Below are positions 1 to 46,144 of a stretch of DNA of 46,144 nucleotides, in pieces (position 1 is the stretch's first letter; each line of letters starts with the position of its first letter). The notes under the pieces were generated by a model that saw only the letters and a list, made by a program, of their open reading frames with translations, was not told the DNA's origin and did no database searches. The DNA is from Catellicoccus marimammalium M35/04/3 (GTDB lineage Bacteria; Bacillota; Bacilli; Lactobacillales; Catellicoccaceae), in assembly GCF_000313915.1 (NCBI RefSeq), contig NZ_AMYT01000018.1, forward strand, positions 1 through 46,144, given 5' to 3'. A program made the position numbers and the translations under genes.

Positions 1-94
1 TGCTCTTTGCCCTTGTCATCTCTCCTTTTCCCTCATGTTCTCAAGAAAGTGTGGGTTACAGGAACTCATAAATAGATTTCTAAGGAGAATTTAT
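1..94 (+). promoter_or_regulatory. Junction copy of leading-region hairpin repeat (right half)
   Basis: This is the right half of a hairpin repeat whose left half ends the window, read across the circular junction. TTGTCA lies at 13-18, a 17-nt spacer follows, then TGTTCT at 36-41. The same boxes and spacing occur at 44933-44961 and 1054-1082. CTCATGTT at 32-39 pairs with AACATGAG at 46113-46120, and CCCTTG pairs with CAAGGG at 46133-46138. A small GGGTT/AACTC hairpin follows, then the AGGAG site of the next gene. I infer a promoter that could be active when folded as single-stranded DNA. Confidence 0.6.
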
Positions 95-292
95 ATGGAA
101 GTTGGAAAAACTTATAAGGTTATTAACCCTTGTCAGATTGATGGAATTAACTTCAATGAAGGAGATATTTTAAAAGTAATATCTAAAAATAATATGAAAA
201 TAGAAGTCGAAAATATGGAGACAAAGGAAAAGAAATTTACTTATGGTATGTTTTTAGAAATTGCTTGTGAGGAGGTATCATCATGGGATTAG
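95..292 (+). CDS. Small hypothetical leading-region protein (65 aa)
   Basis: I do not recognise this 65-residue protein. It is rich in Lys and Glu and begins MEVGKTYKVINP, with alternating short hydrophobic and charged stretches suggesting a small beta-rich (SH3/OB-like) fold; that is only an impression. The start at 95 is chosen because TAAGGAG stands 8 bases upstream. The longer in-frame ORF from base 35 merely translates the upstream repeat, and the same MFSRKC peptide precedes other genes in this plasmid. It follows a hairpin-repeat promoter candidate and overlaps the next gene by 10 bases, so the two form a bicistron. A role in establishment in the recipient or in anti-defence is inferred only from position. 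Confidence 0.65.
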   Translation: MEVGKTYKVINPCQIDGINFNEGDILKVISKNNMKIEVENMETKEKKFTYGMFLEIACEEVSSWD

Positions 293-687
293 ATATGGGT
301 TTGATTGGAACATCAAAAAAAGACATTAAAAAAGAAGAAACATTGATTTATTGGCGAAAATCAAATGCTATTCATCGTTGGTTTTCTGAATATATTATTG
401 ATAAATATAACTTAGAAACTGATGAAATAGAAAACTGTAAAGAATATCCGATTGATAAAGAAGCACTAACTATTCTATTGGCTAATTGTAAGTTAGTGTT
501 AGATGACCATAACTTAGCAGAAACTATTTTACCTACTCAAGATGGCTTTTTCTTTGGAACAACGGAATATGATGAATATTATTTTGAAGATATAAGATAT
601 ACTGCTAGCTATTTAGATACCATTTTAAAAGTTCTATCTTTAACAGAGTCTGATGATATAGAGCTATCTTATGTAGCTTGGTGGTAA
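283..687 (+). CDS. Hypothetical protein of the MGLDM family (134 aa)
   Basis: The N terminus MGLDMGLIGT, the YWRKSNAIHRWF segment and the LLPTQ-like/GFFFG/YDEYYFED segments match, from memory, a widespread family of small phage and plasmid proteins of unknown function. AGGAGG lies directly upstream of the ATG. The gene overlaps the end of the preceding 65-aa gene and is followed by an intrinsic terminator at 699-724, so these two genes form one unit driven from the hairpin repeat across the junction. The protein is acidic overall with many aromatic residues. I cannot assign a biochemical function; the phage/plasmid distribution makes a role in host takeover or defence evasion possible. Confidence 0.75.
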   Translation: MGLDMGLIGTSKKDIKKEETLIYWRKSNAIHRWFSEYIIDKYNLETDEIENCKEYPIDKEALTILLANCKLVLDDHNLAETILPTQDGFFFGTTEYDEYYFEDIRYTASYLDTILKVLSLTESDDIELSYVAWW

Positions 688-748: not shown

Positions 749-1142
749 CTTATCGGAGCGAGCGACCCGCCCCCTCGCAAAACGTACATTGTACGTTTTA
801 ATTCCGATAAGGAAAAATGGGAAAATACTCCCTTTAGTCGCATTTTCTCCACCATTTTCTAAAGTGAGATAAAGAATTATAAGGTATAATAAATAAAAAA
901 TAATAACAGGAAAAAAGATGGCTAAAGCCACTTTTTGATTAAAAGAAGCTCCTTGCAGTCGCATGAAAGAAATCATTGCAGGACAATGATTCCTTATTTT
1001 GATTCTTTTAACATGAGTTCAGAGTCTTGCAAGGGACGTTTCACTCTTCGCCCTTGTCAATCCTCTTTTTCTCTCATGTTCTCAAGAAAATGTGAGGCAC
1101 GTAAGCAACACAAAGAATTTTTAATCAATAAGGAGAAAAATT
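749..1142 (+). promoter_or_regulatory. Leading-region hairpin repeat, copy upstream of the 216-aa gene
   Basis: This gene-free stretch is packed with inverted repeats. CTTATCGGA (749-757) pairs with TCCGATAAG (803-811). Inside are a GCGAG/CTCGC hairpin with a C-rich loop and a perfect AAAACGTACA palindrome (779-799). TGGC/GCCA followed by T5 lies at 918-935, and AATCATTG/CAATGATT near 972-992. AACATGAG (1010-1017) pairs with CTCATGTT (1072-1079), with nested CAAGGG/CCCTTG. TTGTCA at 1054-1059 and TGTTCT at 1077-1082 are 17 bases apart, as in two other copies. I infer a promoter usable from single-stranded template. Confidence 0.6.
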
Positions 1143-1793
1143 ATGTTTAATGAAAATAGTGGATACGTAGGATCAAGTCGTAGTGTAAGAAGTGCAGAAG
1201 CAATTGAAGAGTTTGAAATGCCTTTATCAATGATTGATAAAGCTACTATTCATGATTTTATTGATGAATTTGAAGAAGATGAAGATTATAAAGGATTAGA
1301 TCAATTAAGAGATTTATCTGTAACTCTTTGGAAATATGCTTGTAAACGAGCAGGAAATACAAGTTGGCACCACACAGGAAAATACTTTAATAGAACAAAC
1401 CATTATTCATTACCATATACAGCAGAATGGTTGTTAGATTATGGGGTAGATCGTTTGAAAGAAGATTACAAAGAAGATAAAGAAGAAGAGCGAAAAGAGA
1501 AAGCTAAGGAATTAGAAAATATGGAATTAGCAGTTGCTCAAATTCAAGTGTGGGGTGGTAGTAGAAGACACCCAAGATTATTAAAAATAGAAACTGTAAT
1601 GGGTGTAGTCAAAGGGGATTGGCTATATGCAGTTAGTGAATCAGAACAGTCTAAATATAAGATTTATGCAAATAAAGTAGAAAATATTAGTTATTTCAAA
1701 ATGGACGAATATTATTCTAAATTAATCAAACGTTTTCCAGAATTTAAAGCGATGAAACGTCAAATTAATCAATGTGTAAAACGTTTAAAATAA
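1143..1793 (+). CDS. Hypothetical leading-region protein (216 aa)
   Basis: The N-terminal GYVGSSRSVRSAEAIEEFEMP pattern resembles a family of Firmicute plasmid proteins (GYxGxSxSxxAxxAYExGExP) that I know only as hypothetical. Residues 1-70 are acidic. The middle holds a long charged helix (EDKEEERKEKAKELE), and the C terminus is basic. AAGGAG stands 8 bases before the ATG. The gene is alone between its hairpin-repeat promoter candidate and a terminator at 1797-1828. Its plus orientation, opposite to all transfer genes, and its shared upstream element tie it to the genes at 95, 283, 45024 and 45304. Function is unknown. Confidence 0.75.
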   Translation: MFNENSGYVGSSRSVRSAEAIEEFEMPLSMIDKATIHDFIDEFEEDEDYKGLDQLRDLSVTLWKYACKRAGNTSWHHTGKYFNRTNHYSLPYTAEWLLDYGVDRLKEDYKEDKEEERKEKAKELENMELAVAQIQVWGGSRRHPRLLKIETVMGVVKGDWLYAVSESEQSKYKIYANKVENISYFKMDEYYSKLIKRFPEFKAMKRQINQCVKRLK

Positions 1794-2004: not shown

Positions 2005-2115
2005 TAATGTAATTTATTTTCCAAAAAATAAATATGGATTTACATAATAATTTCAAATATGATAAAAGTGAGTATATAGTTATCTAATTAAAAATAAAAG
2101 ATGGTGAGAGGATTT

Positions 2116-3741
2116 ATGAAATTAATTAATTTATTACGAAAAATATTTTATAAAGATGATTTAACTGAAAAAGAGAGTACATGTATAAATGAATTTGATA
2201 TAAGAAAAGAAAATGAAGAAAATGATGATACCAATTTTATTTGCAAAAAGAAAAATAATGAAGTTAATATATACGGTGTTTCTTTAGATAAAGATGTTTA
2301 TGATCTGTTACGCAAAAAATATATCGCATTTGATGTAGAAACTACTGGTTTAAATGAATCTGTTGATAGAATTATCGAAATAGGAGCGATTATTTATGAA
2401 AATGGTATCCCTACAAAAAGATATGAAACACTTGTAAATGCAAAAGTAGAGGTTCCACAATCTGCAACTAACATTAATCATATAACTAATGAAATGTTAC
2501 AAAATGCACCTCAAGAAAAAGAATGTTACGAAAATTTAGTAGAGTTTTTAGGTGATGCATTGAACGGAGAAACTATAATATGTGCTCATAATGCTAAATT
2601 TGATATGAAATTTTTATCTGCAACTTTAAAAAGATTAGGTTATGATGCCAATATATCCTATATTGATACACTTGCTTTATCTAGAATATATGTAAAGGGA
2701 TTAATTAATTATAAGCAAAATACAGTGGCAGAACATTTTAATTTATGTAATAAAAATTTACATAGAGCAGGAAGTGATGCAGAAATTTGCGGAAATATTC
2801 TTTGGAATCTATTAGATATTATTAATATAGAATATGAAAAAAGAAGACCTACGTCTGATGAATTAGAAGTTTGTGCCGTAATTCAAAATATTATATCAAA
2901 AAAAAATAATGCAGAAGAATCATTGGCATTTTATAAATTGAGTGGTAATTATGTGGAAGTATCTTTTTTAAGAAATAATTTACGATATGGTATGTTTAAA
3001 TTTAAATTTGCTAAAAAGGGTAAGTATATTATTGTTTCGAAAAACATACAAAATATCGAAAATTTTGCTACAGAATTTTGTGTAGAAAGTGAAGGTGGAA
3101 AAGATTTTATACGCCTATTTTTCAATTCGCCACTTGAATTGGAGAAAATAGATCAGTATCTTTTTGATGTATATAAGAAAACTAAAAATACTGCTATCAA
3201 GAATCAAGAAATTATGAATAGATATAGATCTGATAGTAAATTAAGTGATGGGTATCGTAATATATTCAATAATTATTTATTAGAAAAAGATATTAAAGAA
3301 TTACTGAATATAGTTAGGAATAAACAATATCCAATATGCAATCCAATATGCAAAGTTATTCCAGAAATATCTGTTAATAGGGAAGATATAGAAATTCATC
3401 CTATACATAATAGAATTCCTATAGATCAGATTAAAACATTAGAACATTCTCCTAAGGCTATCAAACAACGATTTGTATTGTTTGAAAAAGGAGAAATTCT
3501 TAGAAAGGAAGGAAATATAAAAGAAGCTATTAGATTATATGATAAAGCTAGATATAATGGATATGATGCACCCGCTTTATATAAATCATATGCAATGGCG
3601 TATAGAAAATTAAAAGATTATGATAATGAAATAGCTATTCTCGATGAAGGAATTGCACAATATAAAAATCATAATACTTTAATAACTAGAAGACAAAGAG
3701 CAATTCAATTATTATTAAAACAGAGAAATAAAAATACATAG
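2116..3741 (+). CDS. DnaQ-like DEDDh 3'-5' exonuclease with C-terminal TPR-like repeats
   Basis: The exonuclease domain (about residues 68-235) shows FDVETTG (motif I Asp and Glu), HNAKFD (motif II) and a HRAGSDAE segment (motif III His and Asp), the DEDDh set of DNA polymerase III epsilon-like nucleases. A middle region I do not recognise follows. The last ~90 residues (LFEKGEILRKEGNIKEAIRLYDKA onward) look like two TPR helical pairs. It probably degrades or trims DNA or RNA 3' ends. The start at 2116 (MKLINLL) follows GAGAGG; an ATG at 2101 is also in frame. The gene is flanked by direct repeats and converges on topB, so it appears to be an inserted cargo gene. A defence role is possible but unproven. 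Confidence 0.8.
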   Translation: MKLINLLRKIFYKDDLTEKESTCINEFDIRKENEENDDTNFICKKKNNEVNIYGVSLDKDVYDLLRKKYIAFDVETTGLNESVDRIIEIGAIIYENGIPTKRYETLVNAKVEVPQSATNINHITNEMLQNAPQEKECYENLVEFLGDALNGETIICAHNAKFDMKFLSATLKRLGYDANISYIDTLALSRIYVKGLINYKQNTVAEHFNLCNKNLHRAGSDAEICGNILWNLLDIINIEYEKRRPTSDELEVCAVIQNIISKKNNAEESLAFYKLSGNYVEVSFLRNNLRYGMFKFKFAKKGKYIIVSKNIQNIENFATEFCVESEGGKDFIRLFFNSPLELEKIDQYLFDVYKKTKNTAIKNQEIMNRYRSDSKLSDGYRNIFNNYLLEKDIKELLNIVRNKQYPICNPICKVIPEISVNREDIEIHPIHNRIPIDQIKTLEHSPKAIKQRFVLFEKGEILRKEGNIKEAIRLYDKARYNGYDAPALYKSYAMAYRKLKDYDNEIAILDEGIAQYKNHNTLITRRQRAIQLLLKQRNKNT

Positions 3742-11252: not shown

Positions 11253-12629
11253 CTATAAATCTAAACCATATTCTCTCGCTTTTTGAATGCGTTGAATTTC
11301 TTGGTTGGTTTGTTCAAATTCTTGTTCTGCTTTCCATTGTTTCACTTCATTACTCATCAATCGCTGCATTTTTTTGAATTGCAAAAACATAGAATTGGTA
11401 TGATATTGAATTTCATTTTTCGTTTGATCTCGTGGTTGATAGTGATAATCTTTCGTTTTTATTTTAGCATTAGAAGGTTTTTCTTTCTTCATTTCTTCTA
11501 AAATACTGTTAGATAATCGATAATAAATTCCATCTTTTCCATATAATTTATTTTCATAATAAGAATTTTTATTCTCATTCAACTTACCATAAACTTGTGC
11601 TTTAAAATCATTTTCTTCTTTTGCGATAGACTTGTATAAAGGAAAGTCTTCATTCTTTTCCATCAACAAATCAATAAATTGATACATCTCTTTTTTTGCT
11701 GAATCAGATAAATGATGAGTGTTCCAATTCTTTTTTTCTTCTGGTAAAGTTGCTTTTACTCGCAAAAATTGGTGCTTAATTTCTCGATTACGTTTTATCT
11801 TTTTATGAAAATCTTGCTTTACATCTATTCGTAATGAATCACGTAGTTGACTCATTTCTTTGTATACGCTGGTACGATCATATAAAGCATTGGAAAAATT
11901 TCTCTTCATACGTTCGATAGTTTTAGGCTTCCTTTTTCCTCTTTGTTTACCATCATTCATGATTTTTCTTGATGAAAGTTTAGGTTCAATCGTTGCTAAA
12001 TGAATATGAAAATGGTCAGTATTGTAATGAATTGCTCCTGTAAAAATAGTTTCTGGATTTAATTTTTCATCTTGAATCATTTCACGAATCATTACACGAC
12101 TCGCTTCAATTAATGGTTCACGATTTAATTCTTTAGTGTAAGGATTGTAAACTCCTGCTTCAATTAATCCTTTAGTATCAAAGGAAACTACATCTGTAAA
12201 CATTACATTTCCATTCTCTTGAGCTTTGTTAAAATCATTTCTTAACTTAGCTACTTCTTCTTGCGTTAAGTCATCGCTGGTAAAATCAAAGAGTCCTGTA
12301 TTTTTGATTTTAGTTCGTCTAGGTTCCTCTCTTCTCATTGAATCTAACTTTTCTTTGAGCTTTGGTTTTTCTTCTGCAATAAACTCTAACTCTTTTAATT
12401 CTAATGGACTTAATTTATCTTTTTTCAATAATGCTTGTTCTCGATCCATGTAATTAACATAGGTTTTGAAACCTTCATTTCTAAACTTTTCTTCTTTTTC
12501 TTTTTTTAGTTTCTCTTCTTTTGAATCTTTACGGTTCATATATTTTAAAAATCCTGAAAAACTTTTACTACCATTTTTACCACTAACAAATTCTGTCATC
12601 AGTACCATGTAGGGACTTTCTAATTTCAT
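11253..12629 (-). CDS. MobP-type (MobP2/MobL-like) relaxase
   Basis: The metal-binding motif HYNTDHFHIHLA (His201, His206, His208, His210) is the three-histidine motif of MOB-P relaxases, and the spaced, charged N terminus is typical of the Firmicute MobP2/MobL group. Candidate catalytic tyrosines are Tyr30 (FLKYMNR) and Tyr60 (YVNYMDR). The 458-aa length fits. The enzyme would nick oriT and stay covalently on the 5' end of the transferred strand. It lies in a minus-strand operon with three small upstream genes and the SSB-tail gene. The C-terminal half is basic and coiled. The start has only a weakly spaced GGAG upstream. Confidence 0.88.
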   Translation of the reverse strand: MKLESPYMVLMTEFVSGKNGSKSFSGFLKYMNRKDSKEEKLKKEKEEKFRNEGFKTYVNYMDREQALLKKDKLSPLELKELEFIAEEKPKLKEKLDSMRREEPRRTKIKNTGLFDFTSDDLTQEEVAKLRNDFNKAQENGNVMFTDVVSFDTKGLIEAGVYNPYTKELNREPLIEASRVMIREMIQDEKLNPETIFTGAIHYNTDHFHIHLATIEPKLSSRKIMNDGKQRGKRKPKTIERMKRNFSNALYDRTSVYKEMSQLRDSLRIDVKQDFHKKIKRNREIKHQFLRVKATLPEEKKNWNTHHLSDSAKKEMYQFIDLLMEKNEDFPLYKSIAKEENDFKAQVYGKLNENKNSYYENKLYGKDGIYYRLSNSILEEMKKEKPSNAKIKTKDYHYQPRDQTKNEIQYHTNSMFLQFKKMQRLMSNEVKQWKAEQEFEQTNQEIQRIQKAREYGLDL

Positions 12630-13790: not shown

Positions 13791-13925
13791 TAGTTTGTGA
13801 AAAACTTTAGAGAGATTGGGGAAAGAGCATAAGGAGAACCCTATATAACTTTCGCTCATTTCCACTCGCTGAAAGTTATACAAAGGCTGTGCCTTTGGGG
13901 TTTCTCGCTCACTTTGTGAAAAATA
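13791..13925. other. Candidate oriT: nested inverted repeats
   Basis: GAGAACCC (13834-13841) is complementary to GGGTTTCTC (13898-13906) except for one bulge. Inside lie a perfect TATAACTTTC/GAAAGTTATA pair (13844-13853 and 13871-13880) and a perfect CAAAGGC-tgt-GCCTTTG hairpin (13881-13897). TTTGTGAAAAA occurs on both sides (13794 and 13913). The site stands upstream of the relaxosome operon and between the transfer and mobilisation blocks, as oriT usually does. The nic site is not identified. Confidence 0.6.
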
Positions 13926-13948: not shown

Positions 13949-14167
13949 TTTGACTTATTTTAGCTTAAATATTTTTTTGACTTATTTTGAGTTAAAACTC
14001 TGAACACTTAGAGCCAAAAGGGTTTCAAAGTGCTTAGCTTAAAATAGCTTAACTGACTTATTTTAGCTTAACTCAAAATAAGTTAAGATTTTCGTTGACT
14101 TAAAATAGCTTAAGTGCATTGACTTAATTTAAGTTATGCGATTTTTACGTTGACTTATTTTAGCTTA
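13949..14167. repeat. Array of TTGACTTATTTTAGCTTA-like repeats
   Basis: About seven or eight copies, some inverted, of a ~17-bp unit (T)TGACTTA(T/A)TTTA(G/A)(C/G)TTA, at about 13950, 13979, 14030-14050, 14054-14087, 14095, 14119 and 14150. The last copy overlaps the stop codon of the 295-aa transfer gene. Likely operators or iteron-like binding sites for the XRE or RHH-like proteins encoded just downstream. An origin function is the alternative. Confidence 0.75.
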
Positions 14168-38031: not shown

Positions 38032-39366
38032 TTATCCTAAGAAAGAAATGGTGTCAATCATTTTTTTGTAATTACGATATTCATTGCCGCCATTGTAACT
38101 TATTTTAGAAAAATAATCCTTATCTCTATCCTGTATATTGCACAAGGAGGAAACATTGTCCTTTAATACTTCTATATTACTAGGATTCATAGGATCTGAA
38201 ATTATTGTATAAAAAAGGAGATAATCTTTTGTCTTTAAAATACATAAATATATAAAAATAAGGCTATTAACATCAGTTTTTAAGCGACTAAGACGTCTTT
38301 TTTTACCTTGCTCATCATACCTATAATAATTTATATCTTCCCAACGTATACTATCTAATTGTGAAGTAATAAAATTAATCTCTCTCAATGATACATTTGC
38401 ATTATTAAAAATTTTTGGTAATTCATGGATAAATAGATCTAGTATAGATAATTTACCATCTAACTTTGACGAATGATCAGGAATATCCTTTTTATATATA
38501 GATGTATATATATATTCTATATAATTTCTTAAATGTATTTTTGTTGGAATAGGGAGATTAAATGAATAATTAAATATTTTATCTAAATATGTTATTGAAT
38601 CAATATCTCCATAATAATGGGATATAATTTTTGATAATTCAAATTTATTTATGCCGAAAATACAATTTATATTTGGAGATATAAAAATATGTTTTGTAAT
38701 TTCTAATAGAGAAATAGCAAAATTAGGATTACATCTATCTAATTCATCCATAATAAAAAGTATTCGTTTCTTTTTTGTATAGCCTAAAATCTCATTCAAC
38801 GAATTTCCTATTAAGTCTATTTTTTCTTCTATAGACATTATATTTTCATACATAGATTGATCATTTTTTTTTGCATTTATATTTTGATAATTATCTAAAA
38901 TAGAATCAATTCCAAATTTTTCAAGTATTGTATTTGCTAAGACATAGCCTAAGGAAGATAATAACTTTGCTATTGTTTCTTTTACTTTATCTTTTAATAA
39001 TTCCATATCCTTTAATTGATTAATTAATAAATACAAAATGGTAAGAAGTGGATCATCATATTTATCATATGACCAAGAATCAAAATAAATTGCTATGTAA
39101 TCGTCCTTGAACTTTATTATTTCTTCATCTTCAGATGTTTTAGGAATATCGGTACGATTAGCCAAATATTCTAATTGTTTTAAAAATACAGTTTTACCAC
39201 TACCCCATCTTCCATCTAAGGATATTGAAAAATGTCTATCCTCTTTGTTTAATAAAGAAATAATAATGTTTAAATATTTATTTCTTTTAAATATATCTTC
39301 CTTATAAAATTTAACAATATCATCTTCCATATGATCTTTTATACGATCTTTTATACGGTCTTCCAT
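38032..39366 (-). CDS. KAP-family P-loop NTPase (444 aa)
   Basis: Walker A is LDGRWGSGKTVFLKQL (~51-66), then AIYFDSWSYDKYDDP (a KAP signature), and Walker B is ILFIMDELDRCNPNFAISLLE with the following FISPNINCIFGINKFEL. No obvious paired membrane helices are present, unlike many KAP proteins. KAP NTPases include PifA of the F plasmid, which excludes phage, and several proposed defence NTPases, so an anti-phage or exclusion role is plausible but unproven. AGAGGAGAG precedes the ATG. The first codons contain a short DNA repeat (RIKDRIKDH). It is monocistronic and convergent to the partition genes. Confidence 0.85.
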   Translation of the reverse strand: MEDRIKDRIKDHMEDDIVKFYKEDIFKRNKYLNIIISLLNKEDRHFSISLDGRWGSGKTVFLKQLEYLANRTDIPKTSEDEEIIKFKDDYIAIYFDSWSYDKYDDPLLTILYLLINQLKDMELLKDKVKETIAKLLSSLGYVLANTILEKFGIDSILDNYQNINAKKNDQSMYENIMSIEEKIDLIGNSLNEILGYTKKKRILFIMDELDRCNPNFAISLLEITKHIFISPNINCIFGINKFELSKIISHYYGDIDSITYLDKIFNYSFNLPIPTKIHLRNYIEYIYTSIYKKDIPDHSSKLDGKLSILDLFIHELPKIFNNANVSLREINFITSQLDSIRWEDINYYRYDEQGKKRRLSRLKTDVNSLIFIYLCILKTKDYLLFYTIISDPMNPSNIEVLKDNVSSLCNIQDRDKDYFSKISYNGGNEYRNYKKMIDTISFLG

Positions 39367-39443
39367 ATTATCTCTCCTCTAATATACTAATATTCATGAT
39401 AATATTATATTACTTAATATGTATATTAAATACTATAGTAAAA

Positions 39444-40637
39444 TTATTTGCATATAAATAATTGTTGCAATAATCCTTGTTTTTCTTTCTTCATCAATCT
39501 CAATTTCTCCTGCTCTTTCTCTATACGTTGATCTAATAGGCTTAGGAAATTCCCTATCTTTTCTTGTTCGGGTAGAGAAGGAAATGGAATTTTAATAAAA
39601 TTAATATCTCCCTTATTGATTTTTTGAGGAAATGCAACTTGTAACGTCTTACTCCATAAATCTTTTTGTACCTGTTCTGAATGAATTGCATGCATTAAAT
39701 ACCAATTATTGATTTTCTGAGGTTTAATAAGGGCTAAACTAACATAGTATGCTACCTCATTATTTAAATTAATATTTGCTACTCCTATACTACCAATTCT
39801 TGTCATAAATATATCTCCATATTCAGCCTTATTATTTTTAAAGCTATTTTGATATTCTTCCTCAGAAATATATTTATTTGTTTTCAAATCAGAAATATTT
39901 TCTACACTAAGAAATGGAACTCCATGATTTTTATAATTAGGTGTACTATGCATACCGTCATATATTTTTGCAATTTCTCCTAATTTCTTCTCTTCCCACT
40001 CTGGATAGTCATTTCCTTCTTCATCTTTAAACCGTAGCTCCTGCTTAAACAGCTTTTGCATATATCCTTTTTTCTCTTCTTCCAATAATGTTACTTTTCG
40101 CTCCTGTTTTTCGATTCGTTGATCTAGCAAAGAGAAAAATTTTCCTATCTTTTCTTGTTCAAGTAAGGGTGGAAGTTGGATTTTTATATTACGAATAGTA
40201 CTTAATGAAATAAATTTTTGAGTTCCACCTGCTAATTCTAACAAAAATTGTTTTTTTATATTATTCGATTGTAAATAATGAATCAAATAGTTATTTTGTT
40301 TATTTTTATCTTTAATAAGGGCTACATTTTTAATTGCAAATTCTTTCTCTTTTACAATTTTGACAGGATTACCAATCGTTCCAATCATAGCCATTAAAAT
40401 ATCATTATCTTCCACATAAGAACGTTTATTAATTTCTTCATAATCATGTTTAGAAATATAATTTATAGAACTATAATCTAGTTTCCCATCTTTCAAATTT
40501 TTAGAAGTAATCAATGGATAACCTTCTTTTACAAATTTAGGAGATGAATGTGTTCCATCTCTTACGTCCGCAATCTCCCCTAACTTCTTCTCTTCCCATT
40601 CATCAGTAAATTCTTTAAATCTTAATTGTGGTTTCAT
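39444..40637 (-). CDS. hsdS: Type I restriction-modification specificity subunit, orphan
   Basis: Two target-recognition domains each end in the conserved helix (EQEKIGKFFSLLDQRIEKQE near 180 and EQEKIGNFLSLLDQRIEKEQ near 370) and start with WEEKKLGEIA(D/K), the usual HsdS duplication. The start at 40637 (MKPQLRFKEF) follows GGGGA. No hsdM or hsdR lies on the plasmid, so it would act with chromosomal subunits and change their target sequence, protecting the plasmid or altering host defence. The near-identical central and C-terminal helices favour domain shuffling by recombination. TACAAATGTA-like words precede it. Confidence 0.95.
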   Translation of the reverse strand: MKPQLRFKEFTDEWEEKKLGEIADVRDGTHSSPKFVKEGYPLITSKNLKDGKLDYSSINYISKHDYEEINKRSYVEDNDILMAMIGTIGNPVKIVKEKEFAIKNVALIKDKNKQNNYLIHYLQSNNIKKQFLLELAGGTQKFISLSTIRNIKIQLPPLLEQEKIGKFFSLLDQRIEKQERKVTLLEEEKKGYMQKLFKQELRFKDEEGNDYPEWEEKKLGEIAKIYDGMHSTPNYKNHGVPFLSVENISDLKTNKYISEEEYQNSFKNNKAEYGDIFMTRIGSIGVANINLNNEVAYYVSLALIKPQKINNWYLMHAIHSEQVQKDLWSKTLQVAFPQKINKGDINFIKIPFPSLPEQEKIGNFLSLLDQRIEKEQEKLRLMKKEKQGLLQQLFICK

Positions 40638-40779
40638 ATATTCCCCATTCTTGTTATATTTGTAATACAAATGTAATCTAATATAAATACAAATAAATTA
40701 CATATTAAATACAAATGTATTCATAAAAGATTACGAAAGTAATTATTATGTATTTGTTGTTATCAATTATTCTTTATTG

Positions 40780-40869
40780 TATAATATAAATGCAAATAAA
40801 CGTATCGTATATGACATATATACGAAAGCACCTAGTGGAACTCTCACATACCACTAGGTGCTTTTTTGC
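40780..40869 (+). ncRNA. RNA II-like antitoxin of the Fst/par locus (~78 nt)
   Basis: TTGTTA (40757-40762), a 17-nt spacer and TATAAT (40780-40785) predict a start near 40792. The RNA contains TAAACGTATCGTAT (40797-40810) and ACATATATAC (40814-40823), which recur at 40983-40996 and 41001-41010 in the toxin's initiation region, so the RNA is antisense to it there. It ends in the shared terminator 40825-40867. This is the pAD1 par design. Confidence 0.8.
40825..40867. terminator. Shared bidirectional terminator of the Fst/par locus
   Basis: AAAGCACCTAGTGG/CCACTAGGTGCTTT with a 12-base loop. T6 follows on the plus strand, and an A-rich flank gives a U-tract for the minus-strand toxin message. 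Confidence 0.85.
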
Positions 40870-40905
40870 ATTTGCAAGGTGCTCAGACTAAAAAAGGCAC
40901 TTTTA

Positions 40906-41004
40906 TTATTTTTTTTTCTGTTTTAGCCATTCAGAAAACAATTGTAATATTACGCCTACTACAATTGGACAAATAATAAATTTAAACGTATCGTATAGTA
41001 ACAT
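40906..41004 (-). CDS. Fst/Ldr-family type I toxin (32 aa)
   Basis: A 32-codon ORF with AAGGAGGT six bases before its ATG. The peptide starts MLLYDTFKFIICPIVVGVIL, then QLFSEWLKQKKK. The PIVVGV membrane core, the single helix and the short basic tail are hallmarks of Fst-like toxins (pAD1 Fst has APIFVGLV). It inserts into the membrane and kills plasmid-free segregants when the unstable antitoxin RNA decays. The convergent RNA II, the shared terminator and the paired direct repeats complete the par-type locus. A minus-strand TATAAT at 41063-41058 and a CAAGT/ACTTG leader hairpin next to the ribosome site fit RNA I. It is too short for standard gene finders. Confidence 0.88.
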   Translation of the reverse strand: MLLYDTFKFIICPIVVGVILQLFSEWLKQKKK

Positions 41005-41082
41005 ATATACACCTCCTTCCAAGTTTACGTACACTTGAAAAGATAGTGCCAACATTCATTATATCATAAATAAACTATGAAT

Positions 41083-41754
41083 TTATTCTGACTTTTCTTG
41101 ATTTTCAGTAGAAATTTCAGAGTTTTCACTGGATTTTTTTTCAATAGATAATTTATTTTTCTTCATTTTTTTAGTTTTTATCTTTTTAGGTTGATTGCTC
41201 AACATATCTCGTATTCTTAATTGAGTATTTTCACTCAAATCATCAAAATGACGAATCTTTATTAGAGATTTATATTTTTTATCAGCTCCTTCTAAATAGC
41301 CGACTGCTCGAATACAAGCCCACTGATCTAAAGTTTTTCCATGATTTTTTACTCGTGTCATTGCTATGTCGCCAACACGTATATTTATTTCTGGATCAAA
41401 ATAGAAAACATATTTCTTAGGAAAATAGAAAAATTGTACAATCGCAATATTTCTTTTTTTCAAGTTTCCTTGTAGATAGTCTAAATAGGCGTCAATACAA
41501 GCAGAAAGAATGTTATACATAGGTTTTTTGTAGTTCTCTTTACCTGCTTTTAATCGATCATTGAAGAATCCTTCTTCTTCAATCTGCACCTGCTTTAAAG
41601 GTTTATAATCTCTACGTAAATATCTATTGCTTAAGCAAGTAGAAAAGAAGTCTACTGCTCGATTGATGAATTGAGTTCTTGTAACTTTTTCTTGATTTTT
41701 GATGAATTTATTTAAACGATCTAGAGTTCTAGCACTAATTTGAACTGCTTTCAT
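41083..41754 (-). CDS. Ribbon-helix-helix-like DNA-binding protein (223 aa)
   Basis: The N terminus (MKAVQISARTLDRLNKFIKNQEKVTRTQFINRAVDFFS) has the strand-helix-helix pattern of RHH proteins. A central domain of ~120 residues (FYFPKKYVFYFDPEINIRVGDIAMTRV) is unrecognised, and the tail is Lys/Ser-rich and probably disordered. Its ATG follows AAGGAG overlapping the end of the kinase gene (three bases between genes), so kinase and RHH protein are co-transcribed. It may be a substrate or regulator paired with the kinase. A partition or copy-control role is an alternative. Confidence 0.75.
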   Translation of the reverse strand: MKAVQISARTLDRLNKFIKNQEKVTRTQFINRAVDFFSTCLSNRYLRRDYKPLKQVQIEEEGFFNDRLKAGKENYKKPMYNILSACIDAYLDYLQGNLKKRNIAIVQFFYFPKKYVFYFDPEINIRVGDIAMTRVKNHGKTLDQWACIRAVGYLEGADKKYKSLIKIRHFDDLSENTQLRIRDMLSNQPKKIKTKKMKKNKLSIEKKSSENSEISTENQEKSE

Positions 41755-41757
41755 ATT

Positions 41758-42951
41758 TTATTTCTCCTTATTATTCATTTGAAGTATATATCTGTTGTAG
41801 TATGATTTTAATTCTTCTATAGTTTGGTATCTTTGATCTAAATTTGTATTTGTTCCCTTACGTACAAAATTTACTACATTAGCATTGTTAGATTTTAAAA
41901 TACTTTCAATTTTTTCTCTGCCAGTTAATATAAAACCAAGTACTTGTACTATTGCATAAATGTCAAACCTTTCATCGAAATTATTAAAACCTATTTGTTT
42001 TAGATTAGTAATATCATTTAGGGAACCTTTTATATCAGTATTACTATTAGTTAAATTGCTTTCACTTTCCAATGCTTTTGCTAATCCAAAATCAGAAATT
42101 TTAATTACACAAAGGTCATTGTCATATTCTTTTACTAAAATATTTGTAAAACTAATATCTCTATGTAAATAACCTTTAGAATGTATGTAGGAAAATCCTT
42201 CTATTATTTGATTGCATAATTTTATTCTTTGTTGAAAAGTTAGTTTTTGAGTATGTGAGTTTATATAACCATAAAGAGTATTTTCTACATATTCCATTGT
42301 ATACTCATTGTTATTATTATTATATTTGTATACCTCTAAAATATATGGAGAGGATAATTTGTTCATGATATCAAATTCTTGTTTGAATCGGTTTAATTCT
42401 ATTTCATTAATATTTTTCTTAGCCCTTTTTATTGCAAAATTTTTATTATATTCTTTATCTTTATATTTGTACACTTTAGCATAAGAACCTTCGCCGATAA
42501 ACTTAAGTTCATATTGTTGAATTTGTTTTGATTTTATATTACCTTTTAGCTTGAAAATAGGAATTGTAATATATATATCAATCGTCTGAAAATCTTCTGG
42601 TATATTACTTCCACGAGTGTTTAAGAAATTTAAACAATATCTAATAGTTTCCTCGCATTCAATATTAAATTCATATTCTGTATTTAATAAGCTATTTTGT
42701 AATTTAAAAGTTAAGTTTATTATTTTTAATAAATCTCTACTATTTTGAGCGTTTAGGTAATGGTATGGTTGGAAAATACATTGATTTATTATATCAAAAA
42801 AAATATTGTAGTTTTCATGCAATGAAGAAAATATCTCTCTTAATTGTTGATTCTCTATAGAATTGTATAAATCAATGATTTCCGAATCATAAGATGGTTC
42901 TATTTGTCTATGTATTTGTGCAATATCATTTAAAATTTTATCATTATCCAT
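41758..42951 (-). CDS. Hanks-type Ser/Thr protein kinase without membrane anchor (397 aa)
   Basis: Residues ~145-390 carry the full kinase set: glycine loop GEGSYAKVYKY, VAIK-lysine in FAIKRAKK, catalytic loop HRDISFTNIL, and ISDFGLAKA, followed by a short activation segment without a clear APE and then DIYAIVQVLGFILTG. The first ~140 residues are helical and unrecognised. There is no transmembrane or PASTA part, unlike housekeeping PknB, so it is a soluble accessory kinase. Soluble kinases on mobile elements include anti-phage examples (Stk2-like), but the role here is open. It is followed directly by the RHH gene. Confidence 0.9.
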   Translation of the reverse strand: MDNDKILNDIAQIHRQIEPSYDSEIIDLYNSIENQQLREIFSSLHENYNIFFDIINQCIFQPYHYLNAQNSRDLLKIINLTFKLQNSLLNTEYEFNIECEETIRYCLNFLNTRGSNIPEDFQTIDIYITIPIFKLKGNIKSKQIQQYELKFIGEGSYAKVYKYKDKEYNKNFAIKRAKKNINEIELNRFKQEFDIMNKLSSPYILEVYKYNNNNNEYTMEYVENTLYGYINSHTQKLTFQQRIKLCNQIIEGFSYIHSKGYLHRDISFTNILVKEYDNDLCVIKISDFGLAKALESESNLTNSNTDIKGSLNDITNLKQIGFNNFDERFDIYAIVQVLGFILTGREKIESILKSNNANVVNFVRKGTNTNLDQRYQTIEELKSYYNRYILQMNNKEK

Positions 42952-42970
42952 GAGTGTATTCTTTTTTCCT

Positions 42971-43612
42971 CTATTTTAAATTTTCTGTTTTGTTTTCAAT
43001 TTCTTCAATTTCTTTTTTTATACGATATACTGTGCTTCTTGTGATACCTACATGATTTGCAATTTGTTGGATTGTGATTGGCTCTCCATTTCTTTTGCGT
43101 TCCAGCATATCAACTACTGTTTCATAAATTAATCGACGTTGTGGATTTTTGCTATCCTTTGAATATTGAACTACTCCACCTTTATATGCTCCTCTTTCTT
43201 TGGCTAATCGTATACCTTCCTTTTGTCTTTCCAATAAGGTTTGTCGTTCCTGCTCGGAGATATATTTTTGAATCTCCAGCACTAAGTTCGTTAGAAGATT
43301 TTTTAAGTTTGGATCTGTTATTCCTTCAAAAGAAGGTAAGTTTAGGATATTAATTGTTGCTCCTTTTTGTTTAATCTTTTCTAGAATTGCTGTTATATCT
43401 TGGCTACTTCTTCCTAAACGATCTAAACTTACTACAATGACTTCATCATCTTCACGAATAAAAGAAAGTAAATTTTGTAATGCAGGTCGATCCATATTTT
43501 TTCCAGATAGCTTCTCTTGAAAGATTTTCTTGCAACCAGCTTTTTCTAATTGATCCAATTGACGATCTAAATTTTGTTCTCTTGTACTGACTCGTGCATA
43601 TCCAATTTTCAT
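42971..43612 (-). CDS. Serine recombinase (resolvase/invertase family, 213 aa)
   Basis: MKIGYARVSTREQNLDRQLD with catalytic Ser9, then SLDRLGRSSQD and the E-helix region, a linker, and a C-terminal HTH (PITIQQIANHVGITRSTVYRIKKE). This is the Tn3-resolvase/Hin-like family. AGGAGG precedes the ATG. Inverted and related sequences at 43635-43752 look like its recombination site, so it probably resolves plasmid multimers. It could also invert DNA, and a 25-bp inverted repeat at 33.2-33.5 kb offers a possible second target. It lies just upstream of the kinase gene. Confidence 0.93.
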   Translation of the reverse strand: MKIGYARVSTREQNLDRQLDQLEKAGCKKIFQEKLSGKNMDRPALQNLLSFIREDDEVIVVSLDRLGRSSQDITAILEKIKQKGATINILNLPSFEGITDPNLKNLLTNLVLEIQKYISEQERQTLLERQKEGIRLAKERGAYKGGVVQYSKDSKNPQRRLIYETVVDMLERKRNGEPITIQQIANHVGITRSTVYRIKKEIEEIENKTENLK

Positions 43613-44784: not shown

Positions 44785-45023
44785 TTATTTTCTTCGTTCC
44801 AACCGCCCCCACCACTCCGAAAATAAGCTCCAGCTGTGCTGTCGCATGAAGGAAACCATTGTTTCACAATGGTTTTTTTCTTTCTTTTAACATGAGTCAG
44901 TCGATCTGCAAGGGACGCTCCGCTCTTTGCCCTTGTCATCTCTCCTTTTCTCTCATGTTCTCAAGAAAGTGTGAGTTGCAGGAACTCATAAAAAGATTTT
45001 TCAAACAAAAAGGAGAGTTTATT
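44785..45023 (+). promoter_or_regulatory. Leading-region hairpin repeat, copy upstream of the 95-aa gene
   Basis: TTATTTTC (44785-44792) pairs with GAAAATAA (44819-44826) around a C-rich loop. AGCTCCAGCTGTGCTGTCGC follows. AACCATTG/CAATGGTT with a T-run lies near 44864-44880. AACATGAG (44889-44896) pairs with CTCATGTT (44952-44959), with nested CAAGGG/CCCTTG. TTGTCA (44933-44938) and TGTTCT (44956-44961) are 17 bases apart. It is the best-preserved copy. Confidence 0.65.
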
Positions 45024-45311
45024 ATGAATGCAAAATTAGTAACAGTGGAGTTTAATGAGGAAGCACAAGTGATGTTGTTCCGTATTGATGTAGCAGGCTT
45101 TGGATATAAAGAGTATTCTCTTTGGGTCAATTTACATACGTATATGGTAACAGGCGATGTTGTTGCTCATGGAGATTGGTATGATATTGAACAAGAAGAG
45201 TGTTTAGAAGTGTTAAAAGCAGGAGTACCAGAAGCTATTTATAAATGGATTACAGATGGTAAAAAACGTTTTCTTAATGGAGGAGTATTGGAGGTTATGG
45301 ATAATGAGTGA
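45024..45311 (+). CDS. Small acidic leading-region protein (95 aa)
   Basis: An unrecognised acidic protein (VTVEFNEEAQVMLFRIDVAGFGYKEYSLWV, later DWYDIEQEECLEVLKAG). AAGGAG stands 8 bases before the ATG at 45024; the longer ORF through the repeat (MFSRKC...) is rejected as in other copies. The stop overlaps the start of the next gene by 8 bases. Its hairpin-repeat promoter candidate, small size and acidity resemble those of anti-defence proteins of plasmid leading regions, but no homology is claimed. Confidence 0.7.
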   Translation: MNAKLVTVEFNEEAQVMLFRIDVAGFGYKEYSLWVNLHTYMVTGDVVAHGDWYDIEQEECLEVLKAGVPEAIYKWITDGKKRFLNGGVLEVMDNE

Positions 45312-45582
45312 GAAATTCCACGTATATTCTAGACATTATTTTGATAACTGTACTGCATATGTACAAATTACACGATATTCAAATTACTATGATAGAACGA
45401 TAAAGGATACTATTGAAACTAAATTAGATTGGGATACTATTGAAGATATGAGTGTCTATCCAATTTGGGTGGAAGAAGAAGGCTTAGAAAATCTTTTTGG
45501 AGAATGTGAAGAAGGGAAAGAGATTCTAGCAAGTATTCAAGGTTTAGATGAAGACGCTGAGCTGTATATGGAAATCTATTAA
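45304..45582 (+). CDS. Small, very acidic leading-region protein (92 aa)
   Basis: By hand count about 22 Asp/Glu against 7 Lys/Arg, spread over the chain (for example IWVEEEGLENLFGECEEGKE and LDEDAELYMEIY), which suggests a DNA-mimic surface such as that of ArdA-type antirestriction proteins; the ArdA sequence itself is not seen. GGAGG is 8 bases before the ATG at 45304, which is why the longer ORF from 45256 is rejected. It is coupled to the 95-aa gene and ends just before a terminator (45588-45611). Confidence 0.7.
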   Translation: MSEKFHVYSRHYFDNCTAYVQITRYSNYYDRTIKDTIETKLDWDTIEDMSVYPIWVEEEGLENLFGECEEGKEILASIQGLDEDAELYMEIY

Positions 45583-45587
45583 GTAGG

Positions 45588-45611
45588 AAGGTGGCATTTG
45601 CCACCTTTTTT
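45588..45611 (+). terminator. Intrinsic terminator after the 92-aa gene
   Basis: AAGGTGGCA/TGCCACCTT perfect stem followed by TTTT. Confidence 0.85.
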
Positions 45612-45612
45612 G

Positions 45613-45715
45613 TTACTTTCTCCGTTCCAACCGCCACCGCCACTACGAAAGTAAGCTCCAGCTGTGCTGTCGCAGGGAAGACATTGCTTTGCAATGCTTC
45701 CTTACTTTATATTCT
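45613..45715 (+). repeat. Truncated hairpin repeat without a gene
   Basis: TTACTTTC (45613-45620) pairs with GAAAGTAA (45647-45654). The loop, the AGCTCCAGCTGTGCTGTCGC block and a GGAAG-ATTGC/GCAAT-CTTCC hairpin match the copy at 44785, but the AACATGAG/TTGTCA part is missing. The following 45716-45930 has no convincing ORF. The unit ends with a perfect AAAAGAGGTGCA/TGCACCTCTTTT terminator at 45936-45960. Confidence 0.65.
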
Positions 45716-45973: not shown

Positions 45974-46144
45974 ATTGTTTTTTTGCGTAGGAGTGTCCCC
46001 ACCCCCACGCCCTCAAAAAACAATCGGAAAGAAAAAAGGTAGGGCGGAACCTGCTTCTAGTCGAGCAAGCTCTCCTTTCAGTCCACCCTATTTTTTCTTC
46101 CTTTTTCTTTCTAACATGAGTCAGTCGATCTGCAAGGGACGCTC
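45974..46144 (+). promoter_or_regulatory. Junction copy of leading-region hairpin repeat (left half)
   Basis: ATTGTTTTTT (45974-45983) pairs perfectly with AAAAAACAAT (46015-46024) around a C-rich loop. AAAAAAGGTAGGGCGGA (46032-46048) pairs with TCCACCCTATTTTTT (46082-46096) through G-T pairs. AACATGAG (46113-46120) and CAAGGG (46133-46138) pair with bases 32-39 and 10-15 at the window start. Together with 1-94 this forms a complete element upstream of the genes at 95 and 283. Confidence 0.6.

Follow-up and report, generated by a model that had tools for sequence, protein, structure and literature searches.

The window, by which we mean the whole stretch of 46,144 nucleotides that was analysed, is one contig (G000:C16) of a 1.28-Mb genome and reads as a circular plasmid of 46,144 bp, a reading supported by a hairpin copy that runs through the junction of the contig ends without gap or overlap. 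The operons for the MobP2 relaxase and for type IV secretion both lie on its minus strand; a ParA and a Rep-like gene are also encoded, and small plus-strand genes cluster around the circle junction (Table 1). Three copies of a nested hairpin were found where the original prediction had placed them, at 44889-44961, at 1010-1082 and, joined across the junction, at 46113-46144 and 1-41. In each, the stem AACATGAG/CTCATGTT encloses CAAGGG/CCCTTG, the boxes TTGTCA and TGTTCT stand 17 nt apart, and a ribosome-binding site (RBS) with a plus-strand open reading frame (ORF) follows, opposite in direction to the relaxase and type IV secretion genes. Elsewhere on the plasmid, a cargo region at 38032-43612 encodes a lone type I specificity subunit, a KAP-type P-loop protein (candidate defence class PDC-S20), a protein kinase and a resolvase, and is a possible defence island.

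Table 1. Features of the window and related motif sites at other loci.
Feature	Position	Strand	Description
Element A	44880..44969	+	Three nested stems CTTTCTT/AAGAAAG, AACATGAG/CTCATGTT, CAAGGG/CCCTTG; TTGTCA 44933-44938, TGTTCT 44956-44961
Element B	1002..1089	+	Same nested hairpin with extra AGAG/CTCT and TTG/CAA stem; TTGTCA 1054-1059, TGTTCT 1077-1082
Element C, 5' part	46107..46144	+	Runs on at position 1 over the circle junction
Element C, 3' part	1..49	+	TTGTCA 13-18, TGTTCT 36-41
Terminator-like hairpin (intrinsic type)	44848..44880	+	Ends where element A begins
C-rich motif CGTTCCAACCGCC..CC	44796..44822	+	Conserved; G-rich on the predicted transferred strand; upstream of element A
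C-rich motif, second copy CCGTTCCAACCGCCACCGCCACTACGAAA	45622..45650	+	Upstream of element C
First gene after element A	45024..45311	+	95 aa; weak phrog_32551 match, no function assigned
Second gene after element A	45304..45582	+	92 aa, acidic, no function assigned
First gene after element C	95..292	+	65 aa
Second gene after element C	283..687	+	134 aa, phrog_7971; relatives in phages and plasmids
First gene after element B	1143..1793	+	216 aa; relatives on Enterococcus and Listeria plasmids
DEDDh exonuclease and TPR gene	2101..3741	+	Further plus-strand gene of the region
MobP2 family relaxase	11253..12629	-	Expected entry ahead of the hairpins
oriT core CTTATGCTCTT	13823..13833	-	pWBG749 type, 11 bp; expected nic site
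oriT inverted repeats	13834..13905	-	5' of the core on the minus strand: AAAGGCACAGCCTTT; TATAACTTTC..GAAAGTTATA
CCAACCGCCACCGCC sites elsewhere	L035 11868-, L082 13172-, L089 24117+, L092 12574+, L106 2235- and 1754-, L183 2714-		

An outermost third stem, absent from the original prediction, is CTTTCTT/AAGAAAG in element A and shorter in B and C, and the TGTTCT box occupies the bulge between the two outer stems. The pattern CTTGTCA-N12..14-CTCATGTTCTC matches the window three times, against 0.00 expected in shuffles. Folded as DNA, the minus strand reaches -14.1 (A), -12.8 (C) and -16.9 kcal/mol (B), scores attained by 3/400, 7/400 and 0/400 dinucleotide shuffles respectively, and it folds more stably than the plus strand in all three copies. 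About 45-65 nt separate the end of each element from its RBS-bearing ORF, and the genes that follow encode small proteins without assigned function; the kind represented by the gene at 283-687 (phrog_7971) is also found in phages, in Gram-positive plasmids and in Enterobacteriaceae plasmids that are predicted to be non-mobilizable and are possibly phage-plasmids. No hairpin copy of its own was found for the DEDDh exonuclease gene. A tie between the hairpin and the 216-aa gene was considered and rejected, since different leaders precede the homologues of that gene in E. faecalis, Listeria and G147 and, on the pCF10-like plasmid described below (L035), the homologue is coded by the transferred strand.

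The presumed direction of transfer rests on the oriT. An 11-bp core of the pWBG749 type (CTTATGCTCTT) lies on the minus strand with inverted repeats 5' of it and a MobP relaxase downstream; upstream of the relaxase operon this strand reads, in order, AAAGGCACAGCCTTT, the inverted repeat TATAACTTTC..GAAAGTTATA, then CCTTATGCTCTT. In oriTs of the pWBG749/pHTbeta type, nic has been delimited to CCTTATGCTCTTACGG in S. aureus, and the DNA 3' of a pWBG749-type core is taken to enter first (PMC4652767). Given this placement of core and repeats, transfer of the minus strand is expected, with the relaxase operon in front and the plus-strand block, for which that strand would serve as template, following at 10-15 kb. 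The original prediction had proposed precisely this order and polarity, and both agree with the orientation of the core; minus-strand transfer and the template relation draw further support from the comparison with other plasmids given below, as do the leading-region position of the hairpins and the folding of the transferred strand. Transfer of the plus strand, named beforehand as the outcome that would count against the prediction, is not what the core orientation points to. About 26 MobP2 genes in the order have this core upstream of them, with two hairpins on its 5' side, and the core is nearly always directed along the relaxase gene (inverted in L068 and L070-L073). Relaxase genes are usually assumed to enter last (PMC11541004), a rule that we set aside for the window plasmid on account of its core orientation.

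At the window oriT (13823-13905) the relaxase operon is on the entering side, contrary to the relaxase-last rule, and beside it an array of GACTTATTTTAGCTTA-type repeats (13950-14166) probably provides binding sites for an accessory or a replication/partition protein. The contig with the closest relative of the relaxase (G330:C7) has no opposite-strand gene block, and blastn found no similar element there; scanning genome and viral contigs with the back-translated relaxase found nothing.

As a DNA query, element A retrieved no relative from PLSDB plasmids and none from 148 genomes of the order, three weak matches being taken as chance, and the four matches to CTTGTCA..CTCATGTTCTC in viral contigs were likewise all judged to be chance. 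A wider hairpin family is present on other plasmids. On a pCF10-like E. faecalis plasmid (L035), a nested hairpin precedes an operon of PcfM, AcrIIA9 and PcfJ on the opposite strand; it carries CAGTCGA and GACAAGGG/CCCTTGTC, and upstream of it stands CGCTCCAACCGCCACCGCC, which matches window positions 45609-45654. A blastn search with the L035 hairpin region found relatives in 709 plasmid records, most of them from Enterococcus and others from Lactococcus, Ligilactobacillus, Vagococcus, Streptococcus, Listeria and Carnobacterium. The element family had been thought undescribed, and no description was found in the literature searched, subscription papers being mostly outside its scope; it does not, however, look private to the plasmid, similar elements occurring in these 709 records. 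A leading region of contig G354:C14, at about 34.9-57.7 kb (L167, L168), holds at least eight hairpin copies over 23 kb; seven of the eight tested stand just ahead of a short ORF, and the ORFs scanned there gave no Pfam match. Window ORF 95-292 and an ORF after a G354 element seemed alike by eye, but BLASTP found no homology. In pAD1-type MOBC plasmids, a diverged hairpin (GTCGGAGGTCAAGGG/CCCTTGTCCTCCGAC) precedes the DnaJ/SSB operon (L034 4553-4636 and L095 16115-16198).

A covariance model (R1) of the wider family, built from eight members, has matches in 47/395 genomes and 24/80 genera (E up to 0.01, the weaker ones being uncertain), and two on pAMbeta1; copies in Clostridia genomes are nearly identical to the Inc18 form and were probably brought in with it. 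Across 28 distinct sequences, 94.1% of stem cells are paired, 16/20 pairs have changed on both sides and the covariation score is 0.410, against 0.088 in shuffled alignments and at most 0.102 in slid ones; the alignment was fitted to the covariance model, which favours structure, and the slid controls come nowhere near. The outer stems themselves are diverse, including AACATA/TATGTT, ATCATAG/CTATGAT and ACCACA/TGTGGT among others. Wobble-type stem cells, read on the plus strand, comprise 13 A.C against 2 G.T (7 against 2 as distinct events), and since A.C cells of the plus strand are G.T wobbles of the minus strand, this asymmetry fits folding of the transferred strand and is the reverse of what an RNA leader should leave, although it is only suggestive. 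One specific claim is not supported in the form given: the exact promoter TTGTCA-17-TGTTCT is peculiar to the window plasmid, where all three copies hold the boxes at this spacing within the folded arms, whereas the spacing is not conserved in other elements, and family members outside the window have TTGTnT and TATGnT 12 nt apart.

With the covariance model, element A scores a non-significant 14.9 bits (E=0.058, rank 4 in the window with filters off), so that the model alone does not place the window copies in the family. The model-aligned stems and the motifs CAGTCGA, CAAGGG and CCCTTGTC do match in the window copy, and the order CAGTCGA-CAAGGG-CCCTTGTC occurs once in the window against 0.00 expected, for a pattern picked after the match was seen. 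The C-rich motif is shared between the window and the family with a BLAST E of 1.3e-4 in a 14-locus set. This motif order and the C-rich motif, together with a matching position with respect to relaxase and oriT, make common descent of the window copies and the family likely, though not proven, and the family covariation applies to the window only if that kinship holds. The C-rich motif, CCAACCGCCACCGCC (G-rich as GGCGGTGGCGGTTGG, on the transferred strand), also lies in or near the leading regions of six other loci (Table 1), perhaps as a G-quadruplex or priming site.

Across plasmids, core orientation makes the transferred strand the template in 14 of the 15 contigs that have both a strong element and an oriT core, the element lying opposite the core strand and on the early-entering side; the sole exception, G382:C14, has the opposite polarity. 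Eleven of the consistent contigs have the MOBQ core TAAGTGCGCCCT (G038:C14, G124:C2, G116:C17, G073:C3, G263:C18, G318:C15, G102:C1, G354:C14, NZ_CP068124 (L094), pAMbeta1 (L190) and L201), and most of these are Inc18 relatives; the remaining three have the MobP2 core (the window, L035 and G124:C3), and in terms of independent architectures the agreement is about 5/6. Model matches on G354:C14 are weaker (E 1e-4 to 2e-3 per genome), and G318:C15 and the second copy of G116:C17 were counted as circular. Apparent duplicate loci, MOBC plasmids, the small rolling-circle plasmid G207:C12 (L172) and three weak cases (G326, G334 and G049; E about 1e-4), which show the template relation on the late-entering side, were kept out of this tally, as were L089 and G177:C17, which agree by position opposite MobP2 and in which no core was found. 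An RBS and ORF follow within 350 nt on the same strand for 29/42 elements, compared with 7 on the other side and 32% of random positions. The distance from element to ORF is fixed within groups: Inc18 and pheromone plasmids have about 170-180 nt, 7/8 tested copies on G354:C14 have 75-86 nt and, by the same measurement, the window copies have 49-58 nt. The genes behind family elements include PcfM, a DnaJ-domain protein, AcrIIA9 and PcfJ, and that behind the G124:C3 element encodes a methyltransferase-like protein with DUF4942.

The leading-region single-stranded DNA element is real. At a probability of roughly 55%, we regard the three hairpins as leading-region initiation elements that are activated in the single-stranded state and that probably function as promoters. 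During conjugation, the minus strand would be nicked at oriT near 13.83 kb and would enter the recipient 5' end first, bringing the relaxase operon and then the plus-strand gene block. Each element, while single-stranded, would fold into its three-stem hairpin, and the host factor recognising this fold would most likely be RNA polymerase, the reader at single-strand origins and at Frpo. RNA would then be started outward from the base of the hairpin over the next small operon, with the transferred strand as template, giving a pulse of establishment or anti-defence proteins ahead of second-strand synthesis, which the same RNA could also prime. Within this scheme we infer nic, the family membership of the window copies, binding of RNA polymerase, activity confined to single-stranded DNA and the function of the small genes.

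That the element is a single-strand origin or primosome site and nothing else, the folded transferred strand loading RNA polymerase or PriA-DnaD-DnaB and the genes being expressed later from double-stranded DNA, seems rather unlikely to us, but it accounts for part of the evidence. Related hairpins lie antisense to rep in L166, L172, L179 and L188, and in the same sense in L187. The displaced strand of rolling-circle plasmids is the rep sense strand, and the antisense placement in L166, L172 and L179 (45-60 bits) is the polarity expected of a single-strand origin; on pUB110 there is only a weak model match (18 bits). A match on pIP501 lies 343 nt after repR (2454-2539), near where pAMbeta1 has the PriA-dependent ssiA downstream of its origin (PMC5703833), but theta replication of pIP501 would expose the other strand. 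The ssoW of pWV01 draws on RNA polymerase as well as on a primosome-type site (PMC4595007). The model matches on rolling-circle plasmids and pIP501, taken with the known readers of sso and ssiA, make it likely that host priming machinery reads the element, but priming requires neither several copies on one plasmid (the window has three and G354:C14 eight) nor a mostly fixed distance to an ORF, and it is this repeated placement just before operons that argues for transcription rather than priming alone.

We consider it improbable that the hairpin works as part of an RNA leader, folding on the plus strand within mRNA as an attenuator, stabiliser or protein target with an ordinary promoter upstream. 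In other plasmids the element is followed by a conserved leader of about 170 nt, and nested hairpins are common in leaders, but the plus strand shows the wobble asymmetry the wrong way round and the strand relation to oriT would go unexplained; moreover, the plus-strand leaders of the three window copies have no consensus sigma promoter, and the terminator-like hairpin directly before element A would stop read-through into it from upstream. Least probable of all is a double-stranded promoter whose inverted repeat serves as an operator, kept silent by a repressor in donors and freed once the DNA has entered the recipient, after the manner of EGeRS2 in clade II pLS20-family plasmids: zygotic induction through a missing repressor is already known (PMC8708921) and TTGTCA, matching the -35 consensus at 5/6 positions, does stand 17 nt from TGTTCT in double-stranded form in all three copies, but the -10 match is poor (3/6), the arms are about 56 nt apart, unlike those of an operator, and the outer stem of the wider family varies by compensatory change and not as a fixed binding sequence.

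Returning to single-strand-activated initiation, we tentatively extend it, at a little short of an even chance, to a Gram-positive counterpart of Frpo derived from a hairpin of the single-strand-origin type, so that one family would prime complementary strands on rolling-circle plasmids and also, arrayed in as many as eight copies, switch on establishment and anti-defence operons of conjugative Lactobacillales plasmids (MOBQ and relaxase-first MobP2). Single-stranded DNA promoters of leading genes are documented for enterobacterial plasmids, while the Gram-positive example in a 2024 survey was reported to have no sequence similar to Frpo, and such promoters were judged highly unlikely for pLS20. 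If our reading is correct, common enterococcal resistance plasmids (pAMbeta1-type, pheromone plasmids and some with optrA) share an early-expression strategy built on a different hairpin, and the family, which links single-strand origins with single-stranded DNA promoters, offers a sequence handle for locating establishment genes. The relaxase-first polarity of MobP2 plasmids would likewise explain leading regions missed by relaxase-last rules.

Among known systems, the single-strand origins are as close to the element as Frpo is, given the related hairpins on small rolling-circle plasmids and near the pIP501 replicon. The EGeRS1 regions of the pLS20 family are also repeated, structured and GC-rich, and precede scattered establishment operons without a strong sigma A promoter (PMC8708921), but they are 400-600 bp long against about 90-240 bp here; in pLS20, moreover, the transferred strand is the non-template strand for establishment genes (PMC8708921), the opposite of the polarity proposed here. 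The ssiA of pAMbeta1 corresponds in place to the related hairpin behind pIP501 repR, and pAMbeta1 has two leading-region copies besides, but again theta replication would expose the opposite strand. The single-strand origins (ssoA/U/T/W/L) have a hairpin that acts on single-stranded DNA in one polarity only, as is proposed for the present elements; the covariance model has matches antisense to rep on small rolling-circle plasmids, and ssoA and ssoU are known to be read by RNA polymerase (PMC5703833). They differ in that the present family has several copies per plasmid, mostly just before an operon. With the oriTs of pWBG749, pHTbeta and pMG2200 type (MOBMG relaxases), the window shares the 11-bp core, the 5' inverted repeats and the place upstream of accessory genes and a MobP relaxase, and at the level of sequence no difference from the pWBG749/pHTbeta type is apparent. 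No similarity to Frpo was found in an S. pneumoniae island (PMC11541004), and the family described here, found in Gram-positive hosts, has a different stem plan with a near-invariant CAAGGG/CCCTTG core, and lacks conserved -35/-10 spacing in its wider membership. Like the Frpo/ssi elements of F and ColIb-P9, it lies ahead of establishment genes in the leading region, probably has the transferred strand for template and occurs in more than one copy per plasmid; the window copies also hold promoter-like boxes in the arms of the hairpin (PMC9849209, PMC11541004).
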